From Microbulbifer halophilus (GTDB taxonomy: Bacteria; Pseudomonadota; Gammaproteobacteria; Pseudomonadales; Cellvibrionaceae): a DNA stretch of 64,000 bases. The stretch is taken from the NCBI RefSeq assembly GCF_026183675.1, contig NZ_JAPIVK010000004.1, positions 116,728 through 180,727 on the forward strand, read 5' to 3'. Within the stretch, counting starts at the first letter, position 1, and each line of letters begins with the position of its first letter. This document shows, one piece after another, positions 3,561-21,957 of the stretch. The notes under the pieces were generated by a model. The model ran no database searches and was not told the origin of the DNA. It was given only the letters and a program-made list of their open reading frames with translations. A program made the translations under genes and the position numbers.

Positions 3561-3598
3561 CTCCCCTCTCCCCCCGGGAGAGGGGCCGGGGGAGAGGG
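3561..3598. repeat. CCCCTCTCCC hairpin repeat, copy 1
   Basis: GC-rich intergenic element with alternating CCCTCTCCC and GGGAGAGGGG blocks that can fold into nested hairpins. Near-identical copies occur at 5333-5371, and in reverse orientation at 16213-16251 (inside dnaE2) and 62761-62800. It lies between secA and argJ, and has no T-tract typical of an intrinsic terminator. Confidence 0.85.
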
Positions 3599-8530: not shown

Positions 8531-8600
8531 CGCGTAGGGTGGATAAGGCGCAGCGTGTCTATCGTCATTGTTCGATGGGCACGCTGCGCCTTGCCCATCC
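8531..8600. repeat. TGGGCA/GCGC hairpin repeat, copy 1
   Basis: Spacer between pilB and pilC holds GATGGGCACGCTGCGCC...TGCCCATC together with a degenerate inverted partner (GTAGGGTGGATAAGGCGCAGCG). Related copies are at 16121-16152 (inside dnaE2) and 54991-55076. Confidence 0.7.
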
Positions 8601-15032: not shown

Positions 15033-15215
15033 ATGGGCTATCACCACCTCACCGGGGAAGAACGGTACCAGATTTCTGTCTTGAATAAAGCCGGGCACAA
15101 CCAAATCGAGATTTCGGAGTTGATCGGGCGCAACCCGGCAACGATAAGCCGGGAGCTGCGACGCAATCGCGGGGTCAGGCGTTAGCCAAAAGAAAGGGCG
15201 CTGCACTTCGTATTT
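15033..15215 (+). pseudogene. IS30-family transposase remnant (N-terminal HTH)
   Basis: A 50-codon frame (15033-15185) reads MGYHHLTGEERYQISVLNKA, then a helix-turn-helix ending GRNPATISRELRRN, which is the start of IS30-family transposases. The frame then breaks; the next expected piece (QALAKRKGAA) continues in another frame from about 15178. The catalytic DDE part is missing, so only a decayed fragment remains. It marks the right border of the low-GC pilin segment. The rest of the spacer to 15393 holds nothing I recognise. Confidence 0.75.
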
Positions 15216-15393: not shown

Positions 15394-18300
15394 TCAATGA
15401 AAGCTTCTCACCGCCTGTATTCCCTGCCACGCCAGGCAGCGGATCTTCTGCCCCACCAGGTGAACTACTGAATAGCCTTTATCCGTGCTGACCTGCACGG
15501 TGCCGCCGATCTCCAGAATATTTCCCCGTTTTATCTCCGCCCGGTAGCGCTGCTGTACCTGCTCCCATAGCACCACATTTACCACCCCGGTTTCGTCCTC
15601 CAGGGTCAGGAATATTACGCCGGAGGCACTGCCGGGGCGCTGGCGGCAGGTGACCAGGCCGGCGATGGTTGCCCACTGGCCGTTGTGGAAATGGGGCAGC
15701 TGTTGTGCCGTGTTGTGTTTGCGGAATCGGTCCCGGCGGCGCAGCAGGGCGATGGGGTGTTCTCGCAGGGTCAGGCCGGTGCTGGTGTAGTCGCTGTAGC
15801 TGTTGTCCTCGGTGGAGTTGCCGGGGGTGTGTTCGGTCACTGTGGTGTCTTCCGCTTCCGGGTTGAGGGAGCGCCAGGTGTCCAGATAGCGGTTTTCGGT
15901 CAGGCTTTTGAAGGTGTCGGCGCTGGCCAGGGCCGTGATCTGGTCTTTGGGGAGCCGGGTCAGGGTGCGGAACTGGGTGAGGGAGGTGAAGGTGTGGGAT
16001 TCCCTCAGGGTGGTAATGGTGGTTGCGGAGGTTTCATCCAGGCTCTTGATCAGGCGCATGCCGAGGCGGAGGGGTGGTTGGTTCTGGTTTGTTGGTTGTT
16101 GATGGGGGCCGTCGGGCGTGTTGATGGGCACGCTGCGCTTTGCCCATCCTACAGTTGTTGTGTTGGGTGTTGGTGATTCGGGGGAGTGGCACTCGAGGTG
16201 GCTTTGTTCGAGGCCCTCTCCCCCAGCCCCTCTCCCAGAGGGAGAGGGGGGCGGCAGTTCGAGGTTGTGGTGCCAGGTGCTATTGAGAATGTCGATTGGT
16301 AGCACTTTCACGTTGTGACGTTGGGCGTCGTAGACCAGTTGGGCGGGGGCGTAGAAGCCCATGGGTTGGCTGTTTAGGAGGCCGCAGTAGAAGGCGGCCG
16401 GGTGGTGGTGTTTTACCCAGGCTGAGAAGTAGGCGAGCAGGGCGAAGCTGGCGGAGTGGGATTCGGGGAAGCCGTAGGCACCGAAACCTTTCATCTGGTT
16501 GAAGAGTTGTTCGGCGAAGTCGGTGCTGTAACCATTGGCCTGCATGCCGCGGATCAGCCTGTCGCGGAATTTGTACAGGTCTCCGTTCTTGCCCCAGCTG
16601 GCCATGGCGCGGCGGAGTTCGTCGGCCTCGCCGCCGCTGAAGCCGGCGGCGACCATGGAGAGCTGGATCACCTGTTCCTGGAATATGGGGACCCCTTTGG
16701 TGCGTTCGAGCACCGGTTTCAGTTTTTCGTGGGGGTAGGTGACCGCTTCCTCGCCGTGTTTGCGGCGCAGGTAGGGGTGGACCATGTCGCCCTGGATGGG
16801 GCCGGGGCGGACGATGGCGACTTCGATCACCAGTTCGTAGAAGCTCTCCGGTCTCAGCCTGGGCAGCATGCTCATCTGCGCGCGGGACTCGATCTGGAAG
16901 ACGCCGACGGTGTCGGCGCGGCAGATCATCCTGTAGACGTCCGGGTCTTCGCGGGGGATATCCTGTAGCTCGAGCCTGGAGCCGTAGAGGGCGATAGCAT
17001 TCAGGGATTTGCGCAGGGCGGTGAGCATGCCCAGTGCCAGGACATCCACCTTCATCAGTTTCAGGTCTTCGATATCCTCTTTGTCCCACTGCACGATGGT
17101 GCGGTCCTCCATGGCCGCGTTCTCGATTGGCACCAGGTGGTAAAGCGGTTGTTCGGTAATCACGAAGCCGCCCACATGCTGGGACAGGTGGCGGGGGAAG
17201 CCGTGGATCTGTTGCAGCAGTTGCGGCAGGGCCCTGCCGATGGTGCTGTGCGGGTCCAGGCCGACTTTCTGCATCTGCTGCGGGAAGTCTTCCATTTTGT
17301 CCCACCAGGCGCGTTCGGCAATCAGTTGTTCGATGGTGGCGGCGCCGATACCCAGGGCCTTACCGATATCCCGCAGGGCACTTTTGAAACGGTAAGAGAT
17401 CTTGGTGGCGGCGAGGCCGGCGCGGTCGCGGCCGTATTTGCGGTAGATGTACTGGATGATTTCCTCGCGCCTTTCGTGTTCGAAGTCCACGTCGATATCC
17501 GGCGGCTCGTTGCGCTCGCGGGAGATAAAGCGCTCGAACAGGAGCTGGACTTTTTCCGGGTCCACTTCGGTGATCAGCAGGCAGTAGCAGACCACGGAGT
17601 TGGCGGCGGAGCCTCGGCCCTGGTAGAGAATGTGCTGGCTGCGGGCGTACTGGACGATATCGTGGATGGTGAGGAAGTAGTGTTCGTACTCCAGTTCGGC
17701 GATGATCTCGAGTTCACTGTCGATCTGCCTGGCGATACGCTCGCTGGGTCCTTCTGGCCAGCGTATTTTTGCACCGGTCTCAACCAGTTCGCGCAAGTGG
17801 GCGCTGACGGTTTTGTTTTTTGGCAGCACTTCGGATGGGTACTGGTAGCGCAGTTCGCCGAGGCTGAAATGGCAGCGGTCGGCGATGGCGAGGGTATTCT
17901 CTAGCGCATCGGCGGGGTAGAGGGACTGGATATCCCCGGGGCTGCGCAGGTAGCGCTCGGCGTTCTGTTCGATCCGGTAGCCGAGCTGGTCCAGGGTGCA
18001 GTGGTGGTAGTTGGCGTTGAGCACATCCTGCAGGGGTTTGCGGCTGCGGCAGTGCATCAGGGCGGCACTGGTGGCCACCAGTGGCAGTTGTTCGCTGCGG
18101 GCAAATTCTATCAAGGCGTGGTTGCGGCGGTTCTGCTGTGGCAATAAGTGGTTGCTGAAGGCGATATACAGGCGCTTGCCGAAGTGCTCTTTCAGTGGCT
18201 GTAGCATCGCCAGCGGCTCCCGGCCCGGTAGCCAGATGGCGATGCTTTTGTGGCAGAGGTCGAGCAGGTCACGCAGGTGGGTGCGGTAGTGGCCTTTTTC

Positions 18301-18615
18301 CTCGCGCAGGCGCGAGCGGGAGATCAGTTGGCAGATCTCGCTGTAGGCGGCCTGGTCCGGGGCCAGCAGTACGACTTTTTCGCCTTCTTCGGTCTGGAAA
18401 AGACTGCCGCAGATCAGTTTGAGTTGGCTGCCGGCGGCTTTCAGGTTTTGTAGCTCCCTGTAGGCGCGGACTACGCCGGAAAGGGAACACTCGTCGGTGA
18501 TGGCCAGGGCCCTGTAGCCGAGTTGGTGTGCGGTCTGCACCAGTTCCTGCGGATGGGAGGCGCCCTGGAGGAAGGAGAAGTTGCTTTGGCAGAAGAGTTC
18601 GGCGTAGTACTGCAT
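15394..18615 (-). CDS. dnaE2: error-prone DNA polymerase ImuC/DnaE2
   Basis: A 1073-residue C-family polymerase of the SOS mutasome, which works with ImuA and ImuB in translesion synthesis. The N-terminal PHP domain begins MQYYAELFCQSNFSFLQGAS. The palm carries RGSAANSVVCYC and the acidic triad region EPPDIDVDFEHERRE. A helix-hairpin-helix region and a C-terminal OB fold (GVVNVVLWEQVQQRY) follow. An unusual insertion of about 60 residues lies between STWHHNLE and PLRLGMRLIKSL. Its DNA (16074-16255) consists of two dispersed intergenic repeats read in frame, and it accounts for the extra length over the usual ~1010-1040. The gene is cut off from imuAB by 1.8 kb of other genes and repeats, and I see no LexA box of its own. 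Confidence 0.95.
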   Translation of the reverse strand: MQYYAELFCQSNFSFLQGASHPQELVQTAHQLGYRALAITDECSLSGVVRAYRELQNLKAAGSQLKLICGSLFQTEEGEKVVLLAPDQAAYSEICQLISRSRLREEKGHYRTHLRDLLDLCHKSIAIWLPGREPLAMLQPLKEHFGKRLYIAFSNHLLPQQNRRNHALIEFARSEQLPLVATSAALMHCRSRKPLQDVLNANYHHCTLDQLGYRIEQNAERYLRSPGDIQSLYPADALENTLAIADRCHFSLGELRYQYPSEVLPKNKTVSAHLRELVETGAKIRWPEGPSERIARQIDSELEIIAELEYEHYFLTIHDIVQYARSQHILYQGRGSAANSVVCYCLLITEVDPEKVQLLFERFISRERNEPPDIDVDFEHERREEIIQYIYRKYGRDRAGLAATKISYRFKSALRDIGKALGIGAATIEQLIAERAWWDKMEDFPQQMQKVGLDPHSTIGRALPQLLQQIHGFPRHLSQHVGGFVITEQPLYHLVPIENAAMEDRTIVQWDKEDIEDLKLMKVDVLALGMLTALRKSLNAIALYGSRLELQDIPREDPDVYRMICRADTVGVFQIESRAQMSMLPRLRPESFYELVIEVAIVRPGPIQGDMVHPYLRRKHGEEAVTYPHEKLKPVLERTKGVPIFQEQVIQLSMVAAGFSGGEADELRRAMASWGKNGDLYKFRDRLIRGMQANGYSTDFAEQLFNQMKGFGAYGFPESHSASFALLAYFSAWVKHHHPAAFYCGLLNSQPMGFYAPAQLVYDAQRHNVKVLPIDILNSTWHHNLELPPPSPSGRGAGGEGLEQSHLECHSPESPTPNTTTVGWAKRSVPINTPDGPHQQPTNQNQPPLRLGMRLIKSLDETSATTITTLRESHTFTSLTQFRTLTRLPKDQITALASADTFKSLTENRYLDTWRSLNPEAEDTTVTEHTPGNSTEDNSYSDYTSTGLTLREHPIALLRRRDRFRKHNTAQQLPHFHNGQWATIAGLVTCRQRPGSASGVIFLTLEDETGVVNVVLWEQVQQRYRAEIKRGNILEIGGTVQVSTDKGYSVVHLVGQKIRCLAWQGIQAVRSFH
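16074..16255 (-). repeat. in-frame repeat insertion inside dnaE2
   Basis: On the + strand this stretch contains a TGGGCA/GCGC element (16121-16152) and a CCCTCTCCC element (16213-16251), joined by low-complexity sequence. Both families are otherwise intergenic in this window. The reading frame of dnaE2 stays open through all of it and encodes a Pro/Gly/Ser-rich peptide. Confidence 0.85.
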
Positions 18616-18663
18616 GGGTGCGTCACTCGTGTTTGTATCGAAGCCGCTATTCCAGCGGAGGCG

Positions 18664-19469
18664 TTATCCCGGTATCGGATCGAGTCCGGTATGACAAAAT
18701 GATCCGGGATTCGATTGAGGGGCCCCGTTCCCTGGATTCCGGCCTTTGCCGGAATGACGGCAGGGGGCCTTGTCATCCCGGACTTGATCCGGGCTCCAGT
18801 TGAGGGGCCCCGTTCCCTGGATTCCGGCTTTCGCCGGACTGACGGCAGGGGGCCTTGTCATCCCGGACTTGATCCGGGATCCAGTTGAGGGGCCCCGTTC
18901 CCTGGATTCCGGCCTTCGCCGGAATGACGGCAGGGGGGGCCTCGTCGTCCCGGACTTGATCCGGGATCCAGTTGAGGGGCCGGTTCCCTAGATTCCGGCT
19001 TTCGCCGGAATGACGGCAGGGGGCCTTGTCATCCCGGACTTGATCCGGGCTCCAGTTGAGGGGCCCCGTTCCCTGGATTCCGGCTGACGCCGGAATGACG
19101 GCAGGAGGCCTTGTCATCCCGGCCTTGATCCGGGATCCCGTTGAGGGGCCGGTTCCCTAGATGCCGGCTTTCGCCGGAATGACGGCAGGGGGCCTTGTCA
19201 TCCCGGCCTTGATCCGGGATCCAGTTGAGGGGCCCCGTTCCCTGGATTCCGGCTTTCGCCGGAATGACGGCAGGAGGCCTTGTCATCCCGGACTTGATCC
19301 GGGATCCAGTTGAGGGGCCCCGTTCCCTGGATTCCGGCTTTCGCCGGAATGACGGCAGGAGGCCTTGTCATCCCGGACTTGATCCGGGATCCAGTTGAGG
19401 GGCCCCGTTCCCTGGATTCCGGTACCGGATCAGGTCCGGCATGACGTTCCTTTGCCGGAATGACGAGAC
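18664..19469. repeat. tandem array of eight ~85-bp palindromic repeats
   Basis: The marker GACGGCAG recurs at 18756, 18841, 18926, 19012, 19097, 19181, 19266 and 19351, so the period is 84-86 bp. Each unit contains two palindromes: ATTCCGGC...GCCGGAAT and CCCGGA...TCCGGG. A degenerate half unit lies at each end. Units differ by a few substitutions and there are no unique spacers. A single, diverged copy of the same architecture is at 25811-25884. Read as protein this gives the VIPAKAGIQ-type spurious ORFs known from many proteobacterial genomes; no real gene is present. It fills the space between dnaE2 and the GIY-YIG gene. Confidence 0.95.
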
Positions 19470-19471
19470 GC

Positions 19472-19762
19472 TTAGAATATTTCGGAGTAGAGGTCTCGCC
19501 AGTGTGGATTGAACTGTTCGATTAAATTGAGCTTCCAGATCCTCTTCCAGTTTTTGATGGCTTTTTCTCTGCTGATTGCATTCTCCATAGTGCTGTGCAT
19601 TTCGTACCAGACGAGATTCTTGACGGTGTACTTTTTGGTAAAGCCATCGATAAAGCCATTCTTGTGTTGCCATATCCTCTGTACCAGGTTGGAGGTGGCA
19701 CCCGTATAAAGAGTACCGTTGCGCTTGCTACTAAGGATGTAGATACAAGGTTGTCTGTTCAC
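19472..19762 (-). CDS. GIY-YIG nuclease domain protein
   Basis: A 96-residue single-domain GIY-YIG protein. The motif halves are CIYIL and LYTGATSNLVQRIWQHKNG, with Arg of VQRIWQH and the Glu of MENAISREKAIKNWKR at the expected catalytic places. The C-terminus NPHWRDLY is typical of this small stand-alone group, whose function is unknown. The start seems to be GTG at 19762. The stop lies only a few bases from the last palindromic repeat of the array, which suggests that gene and array belong together (inference). Confidence 0.9.
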   Translation of the reverse strand: MNRQPCIYILSSKRNGTLYTGATSNLVQRIWQHKNGFIDGFTKKYTVKNLVWYEMHSTMENAISREKAIKNWKRIWKLNLIEQFNPHWRDLYSEIF

Positions 19763-19781: not shown

Positions 19782-20060
19782 TTATGCCGCGTGGAACTCT
19801 ACAGTGATTTCAAAGCCGCACGCATGTGCGTATTTCTTTAGAACCTTCCAACTGGGGTTGGTGTTACCTCTTTCCAGACGGCAGATATTACTTTTCTGGG
19901 TACCCATACGCTGTGCCAGCTCTTCCTGGGTCAGGCCGGCAGCAGTCCTCATTTTCAGGAGTTTGTCGATTAGTTCGAACTCTTCTTCAAGAGCATCGTA
20001 TTCGTGCCGCACTTCAGGGGTTTGAAGTGCGCGCTCTTTCAGTTTCTGGAGTTCACTCAT
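19782..20060 (-). CDS. HigA-like antitoxin, XRE helix-turn-helix
   Basis: A 92-residue protein: an N-terminal helical segment, then a Cro/C1 helix-turn-helix (LTQEELAQRMGTQKSNICRL, then ERGNTNPS). It is the likely antitoxin and operator-binding partner of the preceding gene, overlapping its 3' end by 8 nt (ATGAGTGA), which implies translational coupling. Toxin-first order is typical of HigBA-type modules. Confidence 0.9.
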   Translation of the reverse strand: MSELQKLKERALQTPEVRHEYDALEEEFELIDKLLKMRTAAGLTQEELAQRMGTQKSNICRLERGNTNPSWKVLKKYAHACGFEITVEFHAA

Positions 20061-20379
20061 TGTGATTGATCTCTTTCATTCGGGCTTGTGCCAGGCGCAA
20101 TTCTTTCACGGGTAGTTTCTGGGACTTCTTGACGAAGGCATGCAAGATATAAATTCTCTTGCCCTGTGCATAACAGAATAGTGCCCTGGCAATTCCCTCG
20201 CTGGCTTTCGCCCTGATCTCAAACAGCCCATTGCCCACGGGGGCAGTGTGGGGCGCGCCCAGATTGGCGCCATAGGATTCTATTAGTTCGAGAAGCCTGA
20301 GCATTCGCGCCTGTAGCTTGGGTGGCATTTTCAGGATGTCATCCTCAACGCCATCGCAGAAGTTGACTGCCCATTCCAC
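20053..20379 (-). CDS. RelE/HigB-superfamily toxin
   Basis: A 108-residue protein of the RelE/ParE (Gp49-like) fold: RMLRLLELIESYGANLG, then GLFEIRAKASEGIARALFCY and KRIYILHAFVKKSQKLPVKE are the conserved strands and helix. Members are mostly ribosome-dependent mRNases. I start it at the GTG at 20379, because GGAG lies 6 nt upstream; a TTG at 20391 would put that ribosome-binding site inside the gene. A perfect palindrome 20 nt further upstream is a likely operator. The pair reads in the same direction as imuAB and dnaE2. Confidence 0.88.
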   Translation of the reverse strand: MEWAVNFCDGVEDDILKMPPKLQARMLRLLELIESYGANLGAPHTAPVGNGLFEIRAKASEGIARALFCYAQGKRIYILHAFVKKSQKLPVKELRLAQARMKEINHNE

Positions 20380-20398
20380 TTTCTTCTCCAATGAAATA

Positions 20399-20445: not shown

Positions 20446-21957
20446 TTAGGAATATATTCCCTGCAGATACCAATCCTCCGATGTCAGGTCCTGAAACACC
20501 CAGTAGAGCCCCCCTTCCTCCCCTCGGGCGATGTAGTAATCCCGCCCGTGGCGGCCGTGTTGCCACCAGTAGCCGTCGATCCGCTCAGGGCCCTGTAGCA
20601 GCTTGATCTCGCCGCGGTAGAAGAGGCGGTGTTCGCGGCTCTGCAGTTTGTCCGGGCGCTGCAGCAGCCAGGTGGGTCGGGGGGCGTTGACGGGGTTTAG
20701 CTGATGGCCCTTCCTGTTCCGGCCGCTCTGCAGTACCAGGGTATCGGCGCTGGCCCAGGCCTGTTCCGGCAGGTGGCTCTCCCTGAGGGTGACACCGGAG
20801 AGGGCCTCGTGACCCAGGCGGGCCTGGAGTCTGTCCAGTAGCTGGTGGCTGCGCTGTAGCGCGGTGTTCTCGCCGAACAGGTCGTCGTCCAGTGCTTGTT
20901 GATCCAGGGGGTGCAGCCGGTCGCAGGTCAGGGTGAGGGCCTGTATCGGCTGTTCCAGGGTCAGTCTTTCCAGTTGCAGCCTGGTCAGTGCGATCAGCCG
21001 CTGCGGGTCCAGCAGCGGGCGCGAGGTTTCCACGCTGAAGACTTTGCAGCCCCGCTTTCCGAAATCCAGCTTCCAGCGCAGCTGCTGGCTGTAGAGCTGG
21101 CGGCGCTGCAGTTGCTGGCAGAGTTCGCGAACCAGGCGGCCGGCGGGAAACAGCAGTTGTTCGCTGTTGTCCAGCGGGCTGGGGAAAAACAGCTCGTTGT
21201 GGAATTCCGGCGGTGGCGTGTAGCTGGGTACCGGGTCGTGGCGGCCGCCGTTGAGGCGCGCCAGGTAGTCGACGAAACCGCGGCCGAAGCGGCTGCCCAC
21301 TTCGGACAGGGGAATGGCCAGCAATTGGCTGACCCGCTTGATACCGCAGGCGTAGAGCTTGGCGATGGTCTTGTTGTCGCAGTCGAGCAGTTTGCTGGGA
21401 CAGAAGCTGATCCACTGGCGCCACTGCTGGGCCGTGGGCGGGGTCCCGGTTTCCCGCAGCCACTGGCGGTGTTCCGGTAGCTGGCTGAGCATGCGCGCGG
21501 CGCTGGGGCTGTGGCCAAGGCCCATGAAGGTACTGATGCGCATCTGGCGCAGTTCGCGCTTGAGTTGTTGTAGCAGCGGCTGCAGGCCGCCGCTGGCCTT
21601 GAGACAGCCGGAGAGTTCCAGATAGAGGCAGGCGAAGCGGTTGTCGCCGGCGTCGATGGAGCCGGCGGCCTGGGGGGAGACTACCGGGGTGAAGCTGTAG
21701 CCCCATTGGGCCAGTTGCTGCAGTTGCTGCTCTTCCCGCCGGGTGTCGCGCTGCAACAGTTGCAGGTCGGCGCAGAGGGCGCAGGCGGTGGCGATGGTGA
21801 GGCCGGTTTCCACGCCGCGTTCGGCGGCAGGGCGGTTGGCGTCTACGATCAGTTGCTCTTCCACCACGGCCTGGGCGGTTTTCCGGTCGCCGTCTCGCTG
21901 GGCGCGGGTCAGGACTTCCAGGGGGAGTTTGGGGAATTGGAGGCAGAGCCAGAGCAT
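20446..21957 (-). CDS. imuB: Y-family polymerase-like protein ImuB
   Basis: A 503-residue non-catalytic Y-family polymerase paralogue, the hub of the ImuABC mutasome; it binds the beta clamp and recruits ImuC. It starts MLWLCLQFPKLPLEVL, where active Y-family enzymes have acidic metal ligands, so loss of catalysis fits ImuB. Finger and little-finger regions (LACGIKRVSQL-like helix-hairpin-helix; RRQLYSQQLRWKLDFGKRGC) are present. It follows imuA with an 84-nt gap that contains a GTGCGCACGGCGCACCC repeat. Confidence 0.93.
   Translation of the reverse strand: MLWLCLQFPKLPLEVLTRAQRDGDRKTAQAVVEEQLIVDANRPAAERGVETGLTIATACALCADLQLLQRDTRREEQQLQQLAQWGYSFTPVVSPQAAGSIDAGDNRFACLYLELSGCLKASGGLQPLLQQLKRELRQMRISTFMGLGHSPSAARMLSQLPEHRQWLRETGTPPTAQQWRQWISFCPSKLLDCDNKTIAKLYACGIKRVSQLLAIPLSEVGSRFGRGFVDYLARLNGGRHDPVPSYTPPPEFHNELFFPSPLDNSEQLLFPAGRLVRELCQQLQRRQLYSQQLRWKLDFGKRGCKVFSVETSRPLLDPQRLIALTRLQLERLTLEQPIQALTLTCDRLHPLDQQALDDDLFGENTALQRSHQLLDRLQARLGHEALSGVTLRESHLPEQAWASADTLVLQSGRNRKGHQLNPVNAPRPTWLLQRPDKLQSREHRLFYRGEIKLLQGPERIDGYWWQHGRHGRDYYIARGEEGGLYWVFQDLTSEDWYLQGIYS

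Follow-up and report, generated by a model that had tools for sequence, protein, structure and literature searches.

Several families of short repeats scattered through bacterial genomes have been described that resemble the repeats considered here. GTAG REPs consist of a GTAG tag beside a short palindromic stem-loop (20-40 bp) and occur in high copy number; 24 sub-families have been published (PMC3733652). CGTC-1 REPs are composed of a CGTC tag, an 8-bp stem starting with AT, a 4-nt loop and a CCA tail (PMC3733652). REPs of these two classes within genes were reported by Di Nocera et al. (2013; PMC3733652), with DnaE2 explicitly included, and flexible linkers and loops were proposed there as neutral REP sites. 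The same paper suggested that it is no accident that repeats occur in genes of replication and repair. Its main text names neither Microbulbifer nor the species or the position of the DnaE2 cases, and it describes REPs within one functional category as lying at different sites, with recB of two Xanthomonas species as the exception, whereas the genus studied here has four families in a single DnaE2 linker.

The Rickettsia palindromic elements (RPEs) are likewise palindromic repeats that stand in frame in protein genes. In R. conorii, CGTC-1 and CGTC-4 are equated with RPE-6 and RPE-4, respectively (PMC3733652), and an extended RPE-4 has been modelled in the Rickettsia DNA polymerase III alpha, for which a hotspot or a common origin was asked about (PMC3767692). 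The insert described here is of the same kind, being composed of palindromic repeats that are also intergenic and stand in frame in a conserved gene. The likeness is one of kind. RPEs are given as 105-146 bp long (PMC2229807), whereas the elements here measure about 25-37 bp. The third related system is the PIT/BoxC/TM motif (Holder et al. 2015, PMC4666352), which has the same layout as one of our elements, CCCTCTCCC-loop-GGGAGAGGG-loop-purine third arm, and also occurs in many scattered copies. All 23 PIT copies of E. coli MG1655 are intergenic in that account, whereas copies of the triplex-type motif studied here stand in frame within genes, namely in dnaE2, an epd-like gene and a pdxB-like gene.

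The kind of insert is already known, because REP-carrying DnaE2 has been in print since 2013, as the text of PMC3733652 indicates. Among the matches listed in the open-access literature, we found no further report of REPs in DnaE2 beyond that paper, no triplex motif in coding sequence and no loop common to four families. Within that scope, the triplex motif in coding sequence is new, and so is the repeated use of a single loop by four families.

The dnaE2 gene and its repeat-derived insert

The window is the whole analysed stretch of 64,000 nucleotides from Microbulbifer halophilus. Four repeat families, named F1 to F4, are distinguished below; F1 is the TGGGCA element, F2 the CCCTCTCCC element, F3 a CGTC-tagged repeat and F4 a second GTAG-tagged repeat that is present in the DnaE2 linkers of relatives. 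The features of the window are as follows.

15394..18615, minus strand: dnaE2, error-prone DNA polymerase, 1073 aa, intact frame (ORF, profile and Pfam searches)
16066..16260, minus strand: linker of variable length, residues 786-850, flanked by two short predicted strands, pLDDT below 50 at 791-844 (alignment, AlphaFold)
16123..16152 (core 16123-16148), minus strand: F1, GTAG-tagged REP hairpin, GTAG plus GATGGGCA/TGCCCATC stem, read as VGWAKRSVPIN (pattern and BLAST)
16214..16249, minus strand: F2, PIT/TM-type motif CCCCTCTCCC-TCT-GGGAGAGGGG-CTG-GGGGAGAGGG, third arm a perfect mirror, in-frame peptide PPSPSGRGAGGEG (pattern, third-arm test)
18635..19532, no strand: tandem array of an 85-bp unit containing the CGTC REP (F3), 9 overlapping register copies (repeat listing)
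20446..21957, minus strand: imuB-like Y-family polymerase gene, upstream of dnaE2 (Pfam IMS)

The frame at 15394-18615 was assigned to DnaE2, an error-prone C-family polymerase, by three findings: a score of 1306 bits against NF004225 'error-prone DNA polymerase' (cut-off 939), conserved aspartates and a Y-family neighbour. The aspartates D373, D375, D377 and D524, which we take to be the catalytic residues of the active site, are invariant across an alignment of 21 DnaE2 sequences and lie in stretches that can be aligned with E. coli Pol III alpha. The imuB-like gene is presumably the SOS mutagenesis partner of dnaE2. The interval 16074-16255, in which the earlier note saw two intergenic repeats translated in frame, corresponds to residues 787-848 (peptide of the insert region, LPPPSPSGRGAGGEGLEQSHLECHSPESPTPNTTTVGWAKRSVPINTPDGPHQQPTNQNQPPL), and its repeat DNA does encode, in frame, a stretch rich in Pro, Gly and Ser; the Pfam HHH_6 match is drawn out across 769-909. 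The frame stays open on either side of the insert, with codon log-odds of 0.34 and 0.51, which are coding-like in this one frame only (training set of 30 window ORFs, mean 0.33). The claim that the insertion did not break the polymerase thus appears sound, judging from the intact frame and the conserved active-site aspartates.

In the M. halophilus genome (4.66 Mb, 109 contigs), F1 has 52 matches at up to three mismatches, 26 of them exact, and F2 has 220 exact palindrome sites, the dnaE2 copy being counted in for both. Chance similarity was ruled out: the F1 copy in dnaE2 is an exact 26-base match to its 52-match family, and the backward-read patterns gave 0 (F1) and 1 (F2) sites in this genome. 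Further copies were found by BLAST in the window at 8569 (F1) and at 3563, 5335 and 62763 (F2). The earlier note had called both elements intergenic elsewhere in the window, and none of the BLAST-found copies is flanked on both sides by 240 nt of continuously open frame. With its GTAG tag, 8-bp stem and high copy number, F1 can be classed as a GTAG REP by the definitions given in PMC3733652. The 8-nt third arm of F2 mirrors the purine arm with 0 mismatches in 48 of 50 distinct sites, with one in 1 and with three in 1, so that F2 has the PIT/TM/BoxC intrastrand-triplex layout of hairpin arms plus mirror purine arm. The F3 units, which read CGTC-ATTCCGGC-NNNN-GCCGGAAT-CCA in the window array and in pattern searches, are CGTC-1 REPs. 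RNA folding gave z-scores of -2.3 (F1) and -1.4 (F2), from which no RNA function is claimed. Between the dnaE2 linkers of two sister species (L005 and L006), a C-to-T change in one arm of the triplex hairpin is matched by a G-to-A change in the other, which preserves pairing; this one pair perhaps reflects hairpin-templated mutation.

The AlphaFold model of DnaE2 (mean pLDDT 78.1, pTM 0.77) matches Pol III alpha (2hnh) with a TM-score of 0.83 by target length. Residues 791-844 have pLDDT below 50, the blocks within 791-840 lying at 25-37, and are flanked by short strands at 784-785 and 849-850; the linker sits between the fingers and the HhH region. On this model, the insert maps to a stretch that is predicted to be disordered. 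Five close pairs have dN/dS values of 0.08-0.18 when the loops are left out. The low dN/dS marks purifying selection on the polymerase, and the insert prolongs a linker of predicted disorder.

The linker across Microbulbifer

DnaE2 is present in 40 of 48 Microbulbifer genomes including that of M. halophilus (30/37 and 10/11 in two sets); a match at DnaE2 level is absent from the other 8 (7/37 and 1/11), and one of these 7, G007, is only 80% complete. The linker varies in length from 11 to 86 residues across all 40 dnaE2 genes. The loop is therefore not new and was not made by the repeats, contrary to what had been proposed: the linker existed before, is length-variable throughout the genus and was only extended by them. 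M. litoralis, the closest relative found (83% identical), shares both the position and the reading frame of F1 (GWAKRSVPI) and has no strict F2. The alignment of related DnaE2 thus led to a relative whose F1 peptide bears the full repeat signature, in favour of the repeat origin put forward in the earlier note. The assembly at the insert was also checked against other assemblies.

All four families were found in this one linker among the 40 DnaE2-bearing genomes. Strict F1 is limited to the window species and its sister. F2 stands in frame in the linker of G022 and G033 and is degenerate in that of G068, whose linker is the same as that of M. taiwanensis. F3 is in frame in nine species by strict pattern, several of these copies having 0 mismatches to the pattern, and degenerate F3 copies occur in G023 and G068. 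In-frame F4 is strict in G033 and G068 and altered in G022 and M. litoralis. These other scattered repeats in the linkers of relatives suggest that the site tolerates repeat insertions. In G023, F1 copies also lie close outside dnaE2 (C8:1200310 and 1204433).

With identical strict patterns, 125,340 nt of the 40 dnaE2 genes were scanned (L096 up to its frame break only). The 20 matches comprised 17 from the linker, spread over 12 of 40 species, and 3 from a loop of the PHP domain, in 3 of 40 species; there were 0 elsewhere, the linker making up about 3% of the scanned sequence. A binomial figure of 7e-23 for this localisation is not used as a probability, because related species are non-independent, inserts lengthen the linker and the L096 linker, which measures 33 aa, was counted up to the end of its frame. 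L096 belongs to the single-contig genome G064, where the dnaE2 frame stops early after the linker, and this gene may be decaying.

The PHP-loop matches are those of G012 (M. flavimaris, insert of 29 residues), G021 (M. guangxiensis, 122 residues) and G033. A perfect CGTC REP stands in the loop of G033 and none in that of its near sister G022 (dN 0.014); inspection by eye of this filled/empty pair, a comparison of PHP loops and not of linkers, revealed no target duplication. The insert of M. guangxiensis (L030), which is in frame, is His/Gln-rich, and its internal repeats include CGTC-REP-like parts.

The replicative paralogue DnaE served as a control. None of 20 DnaE coding sequences has a match to the same families, and the lone F4 match, in the DnaE of L178, is located ahead of the Met presumed to be the start. 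The 20 genomes were hand-picked, mainly for their repeat content; every one of the 12 with a DnaE2 linker match is among them, so that the '12/20' for DnaE2 in this contrast arises partly by construction. The DnaE segment equivalent to the linker (FSVDIDNRIIYGLG) is short, as judged by eye.

Genomic repeat load and in-frame copies in other genes

Linker content follows genome content. Species with a strict match in the linker carry further genomic copies of the same family (33 and 51 for F1, 56-219 for F2, 26-158 for F3, 134 and 411 for F4), and the medians in linker-negative species are 0, 0, 2 and 0, respectively. Mann-Whitney p values, which ignore relatedness, are 0.009 (F1), 1e-4 (F2), 1.5e-4 (F3, 9 linker-positive versus 31 linker-negative species) and 0.003 (F4). 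Some species are linker-negative by strict pattern and yet have at least 10 genomic copies: 7/31 for F3, 4/38 for F1, 2/37 for F2 and 5/38 for F4, with G023 and G068, whose linkers hold degenerate F3, among the 7/31. The DnaE2 linker both gains and loses repeats.

The search for RAYT-type enzymes used PF01797 (tyrosine transposase), in which IS200-type and RAYT-type members are pooled; it gave 4 matches in the M. halophilus genome and at least one in 45 of 48 genomes. G012, G021 and G035 have no PF01797 match and no F1 or F4 matches, yet 77, 117 and 8 F3 matches, respectively. We know of no mobiliser of CGTC REPs. The F4 load is very high in G022 and G033 (375 and 412 matches), and the two genomes have 9 and 10 matches, respectively, to Y1 transposases.

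A scan by codon usage covered 119 distinct copies from the M. halophilus genome (34 F1, 47 F2, 38 F3) and identified four coding copies in three genes: F1 and F2 in dnaE2, and F2 in each of the two genes below, which rules out dnaE2 as the sole in-frame case.

L068 686-1762, minus strand: epd-like gene with F2 in frame (LPSPSGRGAGGEG) (codon scan, profile)
L076 663-1802, plus strand: pdxB-like gene with F2 in frame (SPLPRGEGLGERE) (codon scan, profile)

The sample was non-random, comprising for F2 the first 15 listed sites plus those from BLAST and for F1 and F3 the 30 lowest-mismatch sites each; copies less than 300 nt from a locus end, copies without 60 nt of context and duplicate contexts were left out. 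A stricter first pass returned the epd-like and pdxB-like genes only and missed dnaE2 itself. Copies in L065, L084 and L108 scored 0.12 or less and were judged non-coding. The best matches of the two genes, to erythrose-4-phosphate dehydrogenase (500.9 bits, cut-off 539) and to PdxB (352.5 bits, cut-off 434), are both under the cut-offs; Pfam agrees with both names, Gp_dh_N being matched in two stretches of the epd-like product and F2 lying shortly before DUF3410 in the pdxB-like one. The products of epd and pdxB both act in pyridoxal-phosphate synthesis. F2 occurs in 2 of 30 epd genes (those of M. halophilus and G033; the 30 are the best of 48 genomes), in the same loop, and this recurrence is weaker than that in DnaE2.

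Origin and retention of the inserts

The insert consists of two dispersed repeats, one a GTAG REP and the other a motif of the intrastrand-triplex type, which would be non-autonomous. We consider it highly probable that they reached dnaE2 by chance landing and have survived there because the loop, being disordered, is permissive and the polymerase is dispensable. GTAG REPs would be moved by Y1/RAYT-type transposases, and the triplex and CGTC repeats would be mobilised by some other route. Such scattered repeats would insert widely, and selection would remove nearly all insertions within genes; in-frame copies in disordered, non-catalytic loops of tolerant proteins could persist. The repeats would have been retained in DnaE2 because the loop is disordered and outside the active site and the polymerase is dispensable, the loop itself being probably neutral or near-neutral. 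DnaE2 is inducible, and we count it as a tolerant protein for this reason and because it is missing from 8/48 genomes.

How often the linker was hit is a separate question. A quick maximum-likelihood tree of DnaE2 without the two loops gave 1, 2, 7 and 2 Fitch parsimony changes for strict F1, F2, F3 and F4, respectively, and 2 for the PHP loop; events that depend on the G022/G033 branch are soft because its support is 74. These changes are not read as event counts, because the F3 copies in the linker are all in one frame and the F4 copies all in one frame, though five of six frames are open, and because G022/G033 and G068 share an alignable, homologous composite linker of the order F2-F4-spacer-F3. 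Much of the pattern could thus be due to descent and decay. Both observations speak for one early composite insertion of triplex motif, GTAG REP and CGTC REP that was followed by loss, decay and gene conversion, a history that agrees with the preferred explanation on the nature of the insert and differs from it on how often insertion occurred. A single gain would require 5, 13 and 5 losses of strict F2, F3 and F4, respectively; furthermore, strict F1 is confined to the window species and its sister, F2 occupies two different frames, several F3 copies have 0 mismatches, and G033 has a separate PHP-loop insert that its sister lacks. We regard this single-insertion history as possible, if doubtful. 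The number of separate insertions is uncertain; a safe minimum from the sequences compared is one insertion per family in the linker plus one in the PHP loop.

Recurrence at one place might also reflect targeting and not tolerance, if the enzymes or processes that move the repeats preferred this DNA site. Several families do meet at the one site, and in some species repeats lie just outside dnaE2, as F1 does in G023; however, three element classes (GTAG, CGTC and triplex) would have to share the preference, and the one filled/empty pair, in the PHP loop, has no target duplication by eye. Targeting is accordingly given little credence. Retention of the insert for an effect on DnaE2 activity or partner binding, along the lines of the hypermutability idea of Di Nocera et al. 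(PMC3733652), is unlikely, but somewhat better placed. The list in that paper of many DNA synthesis and repair genes carrying REPs, DnaE2 included, and the doubt expressed there about chance point towards a function, as do the strict repeats in the linker of 12/40 Microbulbifer species. The wide variation in linker length and sequence between species (11 to 86 aa), the predicted disorder and the presence of F2 in the epd-like and pdxB-like genes, which are non-repair genes, argue against it. A bolder version, which we hold to be improbable, is that the linker serves as a lasting landing pad where triplex motifs and mobile palindromes are recruited as protein: motifs of the triplex type are reported to stall DNA polymerases in vitro, and one within this gene would render the loop unusually unstable, so that the mutasome would remodel its own stress-induced, error-prone polymerase, altering activity or partners. 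Finally, an assembly error or a pseudogene is very improbable. The assembly is a draft of 109 contigs, but the same kind of insert occurs in M. litoralis and in single-contig genomes such as G033, and the conserved active-site residues and low dN/dS speak against a pseudogene.

Microbulbifer offers a natural test of the 2013 suggestion, with one polymerase, one loop, four families, species with and without inserts and a repeat-free paralogue as control. The inserts also call for care in annotation, as stretches such as GWAKRSVPI, PSPSGRGAGGEG and SFRRxPESS in conserved proteins can be translated repeats and not domains.

Several further ORFs surround the gene. The F3 array lies directly upstream of dnaE2, between it and the imuB-like gene, and a small ORF for a GIY-YIG endonuclease (19472-19762, PF01541, 64 bits) is found at the end of the array; nucleases of this type might be linked to CGTC REPs. 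A Gp49-like ORF (PF05973) followed by an HTH ORF (19782-20391, minus strand), also between the imuB-like gene and dnaE2, resembles what we take to be a toxin-antitoxin pair of the HigBA type. Downstream of dnaE2, a 50-aa HTH_38 fragment (15033-15185, plus strand) is presumably an N-terminal remnant of an IS30-type transposase.
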